A stretch of 64,000 bases of DNA. Source: Bacteroidota bacterium. Its GTDB lineage: Bacteria; Bacteroidota; Bacteroidia; UKL13-3. The notes beneath the pieces were generated by a model. The model saw only the letters and a program-made list of their open reading frames with translations, had not been told where the DNA came from and searched no databases. The stretch covers positions 1 to 64,000 of the forward strand of contig JAAFJM010000007.1 in assembly GCA_013298895.1 (NCBI GenBank). Direction: 5' to 3'. Position numbers and translations under genes: made by a program. Positions within the stretch are counted from its first letter, which is position 1; every line of letters begins with the position of its first letter. Positions 4,548-45,473 of the stretch are shown here, one piece after another.

Positions 4548-5359
4548 ACTTTTCTATATTACAAACATATTTATTACACGCATTAAAACAAGTTAATTTT
4601 AATTTTTATTTAAGCATGCTTGTGTGGCTTTAATTGGTGTTTGGTTTTTGTTTGGCTTTTATAGTAAACAGAAAACAAATGGAACGCGAAGTTCGGAATG
4701 TTGAATGCGGAATTTGAATTCGATTGTAAATGAATAAAAGCAAGTTTATCAAAACCCTGAAAGGGTTTAATTTGAATAGCCACGAATGAAATTCGTGGTA
4801 CAATGAAACATGCAACAAAAGCAACTACGAAGTCGTTGAATAACCGATACGGAATGCGGATTTCGGAATGTAGAATGCGGAATATGAATTCAGTTAAATG
4901 AAGGAAAGTTATAGTATCAAAGTGTTGTTTACGCTTCGTCCGAAAGCTATCGAACTTCGCTCAGCGACCGAACAACGGCAGGCAACTGAATACGAAAGCA
5001 ATGATTATCCCTTGTTAAGGAAGATGCCTTCGGCATGACTGGGCAACAATAAGCAATAGGCAAAGGGCAATAGGCAATAGGCAAAGGGCAATAAGCAAAA
5101 AGTAATAAGCCTTCCAACCATTCAGCCATTCAACAATTCAACAATTAATCAGTTAACCAATTAAACAAAGCCTTTGACAAGCTCAGTGACCGTTAATTAA
5201 TTCCATTTTCGTTGACCATCGTCAATGGTCCATCGTCCATGGTCTATTAAGAATCAAACAAAACTCGCAACTCTTCAACCCGTAACTCAAAAACCAACAT
5301 ACTCTTTTTTACTGACCCACATCATACCTCAATTTCAAACTAAACTATACATTTGAACT
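4548..5359. other. Gene-free stretch filled with short word-like repeats
   Basis: No coding sequence is supported here. The sequence is built from reiterated short words: GGAATGCGGAATnTGAATTC (4690-4720 and 4855-4890), GCAATAGGCAAAGGGCAATA (5049-5097), CAACAATTCAACAATTAATC (about 5130-5150), GACAAGCTCAGTGACCG (5174-5190) and CCATCGTCAATGGTCCATCG (5216-5235). Similar words occur in other gaps of this window and inside menD. The last 20 bp before 5360 are the only candidate leader for the export operon. Confidence 0.6.
4752..4798. repeat. Two-hairpin palindromic repeat unit
   Basis: AAACCCT-gaa-AGGGTTT (4752-4768) is followed 11 bp later by CCACGAAT-gaa-ATTCGTGG (4780-4798; loop 4788-4790). 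Both stems are perfect and both loops read GAA. The second hairpin resembles, on the other strand, the CCGTGGAT hairpin at 28495-28514. Confidence 0.65.
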
Positions 5360-39604: not shown

Positions 39605-39690
39605 ATTTTTTTTAGTTCTTAGTTTTTAGTACTTAGTTAAAAGTTATTTGCCAACAGCTAGAAGCCAGTGGCCAGAAGCTAGCTGCTTAT
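39605..39690. repeat. Two dispersed words between menD and menB, overlapping the menD stop
   Basis: Read on the minus strand, the gap contains GCTTCTGGCCACTGGCTTC-type sequence and AACTAAGTACTAAAAACTAA. The TAG stop of menD (39679-39681) lies inside the first word. The second word recurs exactly at 45441-45465 and in variant form at 8694-8720. Confidence 0.6.
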
Positions 39691-41394
39691 AACCATCTTC
39701 CTAAATGCCTTATAAACCTCCGCACTTTTATTCATATCAAAACTCAGTTCTAATATTTTAGCAGTTTCCGAAGGTTCAAAAAACGAATTTAATGCTTGCT
39801 TTAATTCATTTTGCGAGGTGCAATTTTCGTAAATTAATCCAAAATCGGTAGCTAAATTTTTTGCTTTTAGTGTATGTTTGGTTAAAAAGAATTTATCTAA
39901 TTCGGGCGAACTGCTTGGTCCGTCAATTAAGTTAAAAATTCCCCCTCCATTATTATTTAATAAAATTACGCGCAAATTGTTTGGAATGTAATTATTCCAA
40001 AAAGCATTTCTATCGTAAAAAAATGCCAAATCGCCCGTAATTAAAGTGGTAATTTTATTATTAATTAAAGCTGCGCCCAATGCAGTTGAGGTACAACCAT
40101 CAATTCCGCTTGTGCCTCTGTTACAAAAAACGGTTAAATTTTTATTTGGTAAACCTAAATAACTTACGTAGCGTATAGCAGTGCTGTTAGCAATTTGTAA
40201 TTGACTTTGGTTTGGCAATTGCTCCAAAACAGTATTTACAGCAACCAATTCATTAAATACAGTTTGATTATTTTGGGTAAAATCAGTTACTAGCTGTTTG
40301 GCTTTTGTATTTGTTTCTTGCCAATTATTTAAAAATGAATTTTTGGAAACATATTGTTCAGTAATAAATTTTAGTGGGGTAATATTATCTGTAATTAAAT
40401 AATCGGTAACATTATCATAAGTGTTTACCAAAACATCATCTTGTTGAATTCTAAAATGAAAGGATGGTTTTTGCTTTTTTAGCCAAAGTTTTAATGCTTT
40501 CGACAAAACAGATCCACCCAAGCTTATAATCAAATCAGGTTCTAAAGTTTTTAAAATTTTAGGCGCTGCTTGCGCAATAATCAAATCGTAATGCGAAGCG
40601 GAAGTACTTTCTTGTTGATTTGAAACTACATCTGCTAAAATTACAAAGCCTTTTTGTTCCAAACTTTTTAAAACCGCGGCTAATTCTTGGTCAGGAAAAC
40701 CTTGCCCAACAAGAATAACTTTTGGTTTATTAGAATCACATTTTTGTATAGCATTGATTAATTGAGTAGCATTAAAATCATTATTTTTTATTTCATTATT
40801 GCCTATTGCCTCCCGATGCATCGGGAGCTCATTGCTTATTGCTAAATCTTCGTACAAAGGTTCTATCAAAGGCACATTGATATGCACTGGTCCTTTAACT
40901 GGATGTGTGGATTTTTCTAATAAATTGCCAATTGTCAATTGCCAGTTGCCAGTTGCTAAATTTTGAGAATCAAAATTTAAACTTCCCCTTACATGACTTC
41001 CAAAAACATTCACTTGGTTAATCATTTGTCCATCTTGCTGGTTAAGCAATTCAGCGGGTCTATCAGCTGTTAAAACTACTAAAGGAATTTTTTGATAAAA
41101 TGCTTCGGCTATTGCTGGAAAAAAATTAAGAGCAGCAGTGCCACTGGTACAAATTAAGGCCACAGGTTTTTGCAATTGTTGAGCCATACCAAGGGCAATA
41201 TAGCCAGCACTTCGTTCATCCACAATGGCGTAAGTTTTAATGTTTTTATTACGGTTAAAGGCAAACACCAATGGCGCAGAACGCGAGCCTGGACAAATTA
41301 CTGCATGCTCAATTCCAAAATCGCTGCAAAGTTTAGATAATATAGTTACTTGGTTATTCAAAAGCTTCGCAAAGTAAAGTGTATTTGTAAGCAT
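39679..41394 (-). CDS. menD: SEPHCHC synthase (menaquinone biosynthesis), with repeat-derived inserts
   Basis: The 571-residue ThDP enzyme adds a 2-oxoglutarate-derived unit to isochorismate. Conserved parts are HAVICPGSRSAPL, catalytic Glu60 in VDERSAGYIALG, CTSGTAALNFFPAIAEAFY, LTADRPAELLNQQDGQ, KGPVHINVPLIEPLYE and GNRGTSGIDGCTSTALGAAL-like sequence near the end. The ATG at 41394 is chosen over an upstream TTG. Two inserts look repeat-derived: LATGNWQLTIGNL (about 146-158; DNA 40923-40956) and AISNELPMHREAIGNN (about 185-200; DNA 40796-40842, with an 18-bp palindrome). Both fall next to loops around the HINVPL segment and keep the frame open. Confidence 0.93.
   Translation of the reverse strand: MLTNTLYFAKLLNNQVTILSKLCSDFGIEHAVICPGSRSAPLVFAFNRNKNIKTYAIVDERSAGYIALGMAQQLQKPVALICTSGTAALNFFPAIAEAFYQKIPLVVLTADRPAELLNQQDGQMINQVNVFGSHVRGSLNFDSQNLATGNWQLTIGNLLEKSTHPVKGPVHINVPLIEPLYEDLAISNELPMHREAIGNNEIKNNDFNATQLINAIQKCDSNKPKVILVGQGFPDQELAAVLKSLEQKGFVILADVVSNQQESTSASHYDLIIAQAAPKILKTLEPDLIISLGGSVLSKALKLWLKKQKPSFHFRIQQDDVLVNTYDNVTDYLITDNITPLKFITEQYVSKNSFLNNWQETNTKAKQLVTDFTQNNQTVFNELVAVNTVLEQLPNQSQLQIANSTAIRYVSYLGLPNKNLTVFCNRGTSGIDGCTSTALGAALINNKITTLITGDLAFFYDRNAFWNNYIPNNLRVILLNNNGGGIFNLIDGPSSSPELDKFFLTKHTLKAKNLATDFGLIYENCTSQNELKQALNSFFEPSETAKILELSFDMNKSAEVYKAFRKMVISS
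40810..40827. repeat. 18-bp perfect palindrome inside menD
   Basis: CTCCCGATGCATCGGGAG is flanked by ATTGCCTATTGC on one side and ATTGCTTATTGC on the other. Flanks of this kind belong to the intergenic word at 5049-5097. It is read in frame as LPMHRE. Confidence 0.85.
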
Positions 41395-41444
41395 AATGAA
41401 TGATTTTTGATAATTATTTTTTGTCAATCATTTTATTCAATATA

Positions 41445-45377: not shown

Positions 45378-45470
45378 TAAAATTAATGCTTCGACAAGCT
45401 CAGCAATCAACAGCTAATGCTTTGAAAAGCGCAGCAACTGAGAACTAAGTACTAAAAACTAATAACTTAA
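45378..45470. repeat. Dispersed-word repeats between the M23 and bcp genes
   Basis: The gap carries GCTTCGACAAGCTCAGCAA (45388-45406) and a diverged second copy GCTTTGAAAAGCGCAGCAA (45419-45437), each with a GCTT/AAGC stem, followed by AACTAAGTACTAAAAACTAA. The same words occur at 5167-5190 and 39605-39640. Confidence 0.6.
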
Positions 45471-45473
45471 AAT

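Follow-up and report, generated by a model that had tools for sequence, protein, structure and literature searches.

The window analysed here, a stretch of 64,000 nucleotides from a Bacteroidota bacterium, carries on its minus strand an open reading frame for MenD, an enzyme of vitamin K synthesis, the product of which matches TPP_enzyme_N and TPP_enzyme_M_2. Two segments of this frame are written in degenerate seven-nucleotide words, and words of the same kind form arrays in the intergenic spacers of the window. The features are as follows.

5047..5109, no strand assigned: intergenic CAATAGG heptamer array, of the word family of the second menD segment
8584..8654, no strand assigned: intergenic AATTATG-type array, from the period-7 scan
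39605..39681, no strand assigned: menD-menB spacer with solo arrays of TTAGTAC-type and CTGGC-type words
39679..41427, minus strand: menD, open reading frame of 582 amino acids, host of both segments
40796..40842, minus strand: second segment, GCAATAA GCAATGA, palindrome, GCAATAG GCAATAA in the menD sense; residues about 185-200
40810..40827, no strand assigned: perfect 18-bp palindrome CTCCCGATGCATCGGGAG of the TCCCGAT-N-ATCGGGA family, with AATT in its place in the relative G006
40923..40956, minus strand: first segment, about 4.6 in-frame heptamers, CAACTGG CAACTGG CAATTGA CAATTGG CAATTT in the menD sense; residues about 147-158
45436..45472, no strand assigned: intergenic AACTAAGTACTAA-type array, from the period-7 scan

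The first segment reads AATTGCCAATTGTCAATTGCCAGTTGCCAGTTGC on the plus strand (40923-40956) and encodes the peptide ATGNWQLTIGNL. Its period-7 score of 21 is the highest within menD, and was reached in 7 of 20,000 synonymous-codon randomisations and in none of 20,000 codon-order shuffles. The second segment consists of ATTGCCTATTGC (40798-40809), the palindrome (40810-40827) and ATTGCTTATTGC (40831-40842); because the palindrome breaks up the repeat, this segment is weak on period 7 alone (438 and 142 per 20,000 in the synonymous and codon-order randomisations, respectively). A second genome of the same genus (G003), with a MenD of 94% identity, carries a repeat block identical to that of the studied genome (G000) in both segments, which makes an assembly error unlikely. 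In a model of MenD derived from a 44-sequence alignment (mean pLDDT 87.8), the second segment falls in a predicted disordered stretch, with pLDDT below 50 at residues 186-189 and 191-204, and the first lies partly on a predicted helix (151-161); the surface loops expected in the first-pass annotation are consistent with the second segment and only in part with the first. The stop codon of menD falls within the first word of the menD-menB spacer, and the words of this spacer differ in other species.

It had also been proposed that the two segments are insertions, and their lengths speak against this. Between its conserved anchors, the first segment spans 40 residues here, 35-40 across the genus and 41 in G018, whereas, of 21 other relatives that lack an array there, 20 have 39-44 residues and one has 35; nor is it longer than the solved MenD chains in three alignments. 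The second is 6-7 residues longer than in array-free members of the genus and within the range of relatives (34-50 residues, two rows of this comparison being unusable). Simple insertion into menD was rejected on these anchor-to-anchor lengths, and on the aligned sequences the segments are to be read as replacements rather than net insertions.

The words themselves vary between species. Among 42 distinct MenD genes with the anchors located, the period-7 score of the first segment is 17-24 in the six listed sequences of the genus that bear an array; it is 12 in G018 and 7 in G005, and does not exceed 6 in any of the other 34. Its word is CAATTGG in G000, G003 and G002, TTCGAAT in G006 and G009, and ACTTCGC in G004, G001 and G008: three different words with a nearly constant array length of 32-34 nt. 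The GCAATNN words of the second segment are found with the palindrome in G000 and G003 and without it in G006, G009 has a looser array, and in the MenD alignment the array is absent in G005, G004, G001 and G008. By a hand count, this pattern requires at least two to three changes on the trees. The flanks are conserved while the words vary. The segments are lineage-specific, as had been anticipated: sister species use different words at the same codons, and none of the aligned repeat-free homologues has the same residues.

The heptamers of menD belong to a vocabulary found throughout the genome. The pattern TTGCNNNTTGCNNNTTGC, in which TTGCNNN is repeated three times in tandem, occurs 65 times in the studied genome, compared with once for the backwards pattern. 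The initial observation that the menD segments are in frame and built from the intergenic 7-bp words of this genome is confirmed. In 251 kb from three genomes of the genus, 27 period-7 arrays with a score of at least 13 were found, and none after one Markov randomisation per sequence; at the same cut-off, period 8 gave nine real arrays against one, and periods 5, 9, 10, 11 and 13 gave 0-2. A survey of 484 kb of the studied genome, 90% of which is within open reading frames, found 41 arrays: 20 intergenic, 7 at the edges of reading frames and 14 inside them, of which two are in a doubtful frame of 95 amino acids and one or two, being N-terminal, possibly precede the true start. Their units are degenerate, 7 nt long and in tandem, and make up several mostly intergenic word families, as in the short tandemly repeated (STRR) heptanucleotides of cyanobacteria. 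Intergenic arrays on the sampled contigs of the studied genome (n=26) have a density of 0.84 per kb in spacers between co-oriented genes, compared with 0.33 in convergent and 0.40 in divergent spacers. Per 100 kb sampled, array density is 5.9-9.4 in six genomes of the genus and 1.7 in G005.

The sharing of words was compared for 98 arrays from seven genomes of the genus. A run of 12 nt or more is common to 6.5% of 1361 non-orthologous pairs from the same genome, 4.5% of 3270 pairs from different genomes and 0.4% of 1500 pairs with one array backwards. Since sharing is similar within and between genomes, the vocabulary is genus-wide, and species-specific copying between arrays was rejected as the main force. 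A rule that all words are near-palindromic was considered by eye and dropped.

Palindromes of the class TCCCGATN(0-8)ATCGGGA are found at 11 sites in the studied genome and at 6-32 sites in each of 10 genomes of the genus, with none for the backwards pattern. The TCCCGAT-N-ATCGGGA palindromes lie amid heptamers in MenD (G000, G003), MetRS (G006) and MetH (G007). In the DNA examined there are 31 distinct palindromes, 16% of which lie no more than 40 nt from a strong array (background 1.3%); with so few near strong arrays, the palindrome was rejected as the main element. In three comparisons, a 16-nt palindrome (TCCCGAT-NN-ATCGGGA) occupies a position that holds 4 nt in a relative (AATT, AATT and ATTT), a net difference of +12 nt; the sites are window 40810-40827, metH of G007 (L312) and a third, apparently non-coding site (L239 compared with L254).

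In-frame arrays are not confined to MenD. The MetRS gene was located in eight of 10 genomes of the genus, and all eight have an array between the motifs SATKE and DWW, with period-7 scores of 12-30. The words in MetRS, CysRS and CzcA were named by eye, and the MetRS arrays were scored as well: MetRS has CAACTGG and GCCAGAA in G000 and G003, ACTTCGA with a palindrome in G006, ACTTCGC in G001 and G008, and CCATGGA in G004, G005 and G009. Outside the genus, 3 of 22 sequences score as high (G010 with TTCGAAA, G011 with GCCAAGA, and G039 with a score of 15), and the other 19 score 2-8. CysRS has TCAACNN words in three of nine genomes of the genus, with a non-repeat stretch of equal length in the other six, and CzcA has a repeat-bearing loop in 4 of 14 aligned sequences. 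The reading orientation is GCAA in MenD and MetRS, and TTGC in CzcA. Differences in the length of coding arrays between species (e.g., 9 or 12 nt) are not multiples of the unit.

A member of another genus with a single-contig genome (G029) has 6 arrays in 400 kb, one of them within MetH. The prediction that relatives would have arrays at this MetH site held in part when applied to 30 further loci: the score is 16 in G014, 21 in G016 (ATCAAACACCAAACATCAAACT) and 8-10 in five members of the genus; G007 has TTCGAA words around a palindrome, and all other loci, including G005 and G006 of the genus, score 2-6. Some arrays, judged by eye, encode N-termini resembling signal peptides. When read in the TTGC orientation, heptamers of the studied genome encode hydrophobic peptides of the LPIAYC type, located much as signal peptides would be (C1:101308, C1:149962 and C9:48008-48065).

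An association that the first-pass annotation did not foresee is that matched inverted arrays surround genes of the PF05635 (S23) family. Matches to PF05635 total 271 in the relatives, in 52 of 56 genomes, and there are 11 in the studied genome; the S23 genes inspected in detail are found between protein genes or where a gene is split. Of the first 29 loci taken, which included two non-S23 reading frames, 11 have arrays on both flanks, compared with 3 of 416 reading frames of the studied genome. A set of 116 S23 reading frames (113 distinct) was then compared with controls; this set is not random, since its members are mostly among the better-scoring of the 271 matches and were located with an HMM built from a few of the set, and one member, from G018, is a fragment of a gene with a broken frame. 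A period-7 score of at least 11 is found upstream of 43%, downstream of 39% and on both sides of 33 of the 116, as compared with both sides of 4 of 856 ordinary reading frames and 13 of 86 neighbours of S23 loci. In 59 of 116, at least three 9-mers are common to the upstream flank and the inverted downstream flank; the corresponding values are 20 of 116 for direct and 4 of 116 for backwards flanks, and 2.8% of 689 for flanks of other loci. Matched inverted words occur at 83 of 856 ordinary reading frames, which come from five genomes of the genus, whereas the S23 frames come from many and had their starts set by different rules, and at 13 of the 86 neighbours, which come closest of the controls in origin and yet share flanks with the S23 genes. 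About half of the S23 genes thus lie between matched inverted repeats, as in an intervening sequence (IVS) with an S23 frame; 57 of 116 lack matched inverted words, and 45 of 116 lack both these and two-sided arrays. The median duplex energy is -54.6 for flanks of the same element (n=113) and -39.8 for flanks of different elements (n=339).

The word follows the protein. In 6141 non-orthologous pairs of S23 genes, words are shared by about 9% of pairs below 50% protein identity, 23% at 50-60%, 44% at 60-75% and three of six above that; for the 117 pairs of at least 55% identity the value is 43.6%, against 9.1% (0 of 5000 permutations). One subfamily (L394, L403, L412, L413, L364, L396 and L399) occurs in several host families with GCAATTG/TTGGCA-type words as in MenD; no more than one or two of the flanks listed lack these words, and long words are not common to all pairs.

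The words of the solo arrays overlap with those of the S23 flanks. For the first MenD segment, 22 of 24 10-mers occur in S23 flanks, compared with 6 backwards, and for the ACTTCGC word of G001, in MenD and in MetRS, 0 of 25 10-mers each occur in the S23 flanks examined. The fraction of 10-mers in the S23 vocabulary is 0.43-0.56 for all arrays, 0.21-0.26 backwards and 0.19 for random DNA. Three S23 elements, at czcA-tolC, lie beside tested arrays and are part of the vocabulary, which renders the TolC and CzcA rows trivial; with these set aside, in-gene arrays total 151 of 419, against 45 backwards. There is no clean correlation between the number of arrays and of S23 genes: array-poor G005 has four S23 matches, and the TTGC-rich G001 and G004 have five and four. 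In MenD itself there is no S23 reading frame within the segments, since menD is a single open frame with no room for one, and no S23 gene lies inside menD in any genome examined. In G018 the menD-menB spacer is 643 nt long and holds an S23-like gene with a broken frame, close to AGTTCAC-type words; the spacers shown for genomes of the genus hold arrays only.

Two further loci have S23 genes where a gene is split. CzcA and TolC are a single reading frame of 1456 amino acids in G005 (contig C4, L271), and open frames of 1444-1484 amino acids, candidate fusions, are frequent among the matches in relatives. The junction is occupied by an S23 gene, with CAATTGC arrays, in G000 (C9:46843-51873, L147), G003 and G006; there the end of czcA is encoded by heptamers (KRNRQ-stop in G000 and G003, AISNMQ-stop in G006), as is the N-terminus of tolC by repeats (FANCQLPIVVCLLLIANCQFVFAQQ in G000). 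In G009 (C14, L270), the junction has a PDDEXK_3 gene (PF13366) near CGCAGATT/ATCTGCGGG words, and the N-terminus of tolC is built from words of these types.

MetH is whole in G037 (1227 amino acids) and G036 (1268 amino acids), and is elsewhere split at a single place (20 loci, L461-L480, two of which gave no match; the first half was not seen in G008, G014 and G010). The gap holds an S23 gene with CTGGC words in G000, G001 and G005, an S23 gene with ATAGACC-type words in G006, G011, G024 and G043, and a PDDEXK_3-like gene, identified by resemblance only, with other words in G003, G004 and G018; G013 has a reading frame of 187 amino acids, and the gap is empty in G047 and G022. Short ACAGAG / ATCTGCG repeats stand beside the PDDEXK_3-type genes, in the metH spacers of G003, G004 and G018 and at tolC of G009 (L270), and may represent a separate counterpart to the S23 heptamers. 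The genes may have been split at these junctions before the elements arrived.

The association extends to other phyla. An approximate S23 probe matched 26 plasmid records, of which 20 are cyanobacterial. Matched inverted words (e.g., AGTAGGG, GGGAACA and GGGTGTA) flank the S23 gene in 9 of 15 of these cyanobacterial plasmid loci, compared with 9 of 210 comparisons between loci. The flanks of four of the 15 loci (L451, L452, L454 and L458) are nearly the same, so that these four do not count as independent. Some of these plasmid S23 genes (L446, L448, L456 and L459) lie between annotated ribonucleotide reductase subunits or in CRISPR operons (cas6-cas4 twice, cas10-cmr3).

With barely more confidence than doubt, we read the MenD segments as in-frame solo arrays that correspond in type to the inverted ends of tiny elements carrying a PF05635 gene. 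Each element would comprise one gene for a four-helix-bundle protein of the S23/IVS type, with an array before it and an inverted array after it; elements would occupy intergenic places and domain junctions, and each protein subfamily would tend to have its own heptamer word. Solo arrays would be scattered through the genome, surviving in coding DNA only as stop-free in-frame words in tolerant places such as linkers, surface loops or helices, signal peptides and gene ends, where repeated rewriting would give different peptides at the same site in sister species. The association with S23 genes, the orientation of the words and their coupling to the protein are observed; beyond this, the elements may be mobile, and the word may be read by the S23 protein or form an RNA stem cut by RNase III, as in the IVSs of 23S rRNA. 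The weakest step is the descent of the MenD arrays from the ends of S23 elements, with the two segments presumably tolerated in a linker and a surface helix. Against the element-end reading, the MenD arrays are direct and not inverted pairs, and 6 of 15 plasmid loci and 57 of 116 S23 reading frames have no matched inverted words. The test for arrays on both sides is weakened by the neighbouring reading frames, 13 of 86 of which have them and which share flanks with S23 genes, and the similar sharing within and between genomes (6.5% and 4.5%) does not support recent copying from an element of the same genome.

Alternatively, the arrays could be STRR-like satellites born locally by slippage, which turn over by gain, loss and homogenisation of units, are kept in tolerant regions and have no causal link to S23. 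A heptamer excess reported in several phyla (PMC4679880), the similar array length with the three words of the first segment (32-34 nt) and the recurrent exchange of one heptamer class for another in Nostoc trnL P6b (excerpts of PMC4476775) are in line with such an origin, which nevertheless seems on the unlikely side: length differences of 9 or 12 nt between coding arrays are not unit multiples, the vocabulary is common to unrelated loci and species (4.5-6.5%, compared with 0.4% in the control), and the inverted words and the link from protein to word are left unexplained. Rather improbable is a homing model, where S23 elements enter existing arrays or array-rich places, so that arrays are targets and not ends. 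It would explain why S23 genes and solo arrays occur in the same places (the menD-menB spacer and the metH split) and why neighbours of S23 genes are also array-rich (13 of 86). However, insertion into a single array would give direct flanks, and inverted flanks prevail (59 against 20 of 116); moreover, the word follows the S23 protein at unrelated sites.

It is very improbable that mobility resides in the palindrome, with the heptamers as its surroundings, in the manner of the Rickettsia palindromic elements to which the first-pass annotation likened the segments. Palindromes do lie amid heptamers in MenD, MetRS and MetH, and occupy 16 nt where a relative has 4 nt in three comparisons, but the first segment has neither a palindrome nor a net insertion, and only 16% of the 31 palindromes are within 40 nt of a strong array. 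Chance, assembly error or selection of these residues for MenD function is scarcely credible: the weakness of the second segment alone on period 7 would fit, whereas G000 and G003 agree exactly, the words vary between conserved flanks, and an array lies within MetH of the single-contig genome G029.

A wider generalisation is offered tentatively, as something we would sooner doubt than assert. The heptanucleotide repeats of Bacteroidota and cyanobacteria could be the termini of tiny selfish elements that make up one widespread class, of the S23/four-helix-bundle type and with PDDEXK_3 analogues that have words of their own. The word would be an address that goes with the protein; landing at junctions and linkers would break up multidomain genes, provide them with stop codons and new signal peptides, and leave behind in-frame arrays by which loops of essential enzymes are continually rewritten. 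Two long-standing puzzles, the repeats of both phyla and the function of the S23 'ribosomal' proteins, would then come together in one element with a protein-to-word code, small elements would divide fused genes, and the MenD, MetRS, CysRS and MetH segments, together with signal peptides, would evolve by replacement of repeats and not by point mutation. The data suggest that S23-type elements keep rewriting bits of ordinary proteins.

A Rickettsia palindromic element is one palindromic element of fixed type, present as a net in-frame insertion relative to orthologues. The arrays described here resemble it in being repeats in frame within housekeeping genes; they differ in that the unit is a degenerate heptamer, that segments are replaced and not inserted, that the word changes between species and that the first segment has no palindrome. 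The first-pass annotation knew of no equivalent in the phylum; TAACTGA heptamers, including one set of two inside a purC gene, are nonetheless described in five Bacteroidetes in MacGregor 2015 (PMC4679880). Like the STRR/TAACTGA heptamers as presented there, the words of this genus are tandem, 7 nt long, mainly intergenic and sometimes within reading frames; unlike them, so far as that text goes, they stand in frame in core enzymes, where the word at given codons depends on the species, and are inverted around S23 genes. Among the top matches listed in a literature search on the repeats themselves, none describes heptamer arrays that take each other's place in frame in Bacteroidota enzymes. 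In the 23S rRNA IVS of Coxiella, three tandem heptamers, strain-variable in number, precede the S23p reading frame (excerpts of PMC4990558). The elements proposed here share with it an S23p frame within inverted repeats and tandem heptamers upstream, and differ from what those excerpts describe in that each genome has many of them, located between ordinary genes or at the junctions of split ones, with words that differ by subfamily. In the P6b stem-loop of the Nostoc trnL intron, heptamers are of class I (TDNGATT) or class II (NNTGAGT), and one class has repeatedly taken the place of the other (PMC4476775); as in MenD, one degenerate heptamer class is exchanged for another at a single tolerant site, an RNA stem-loop in Nostoc and protein-coding sequence in MenD.
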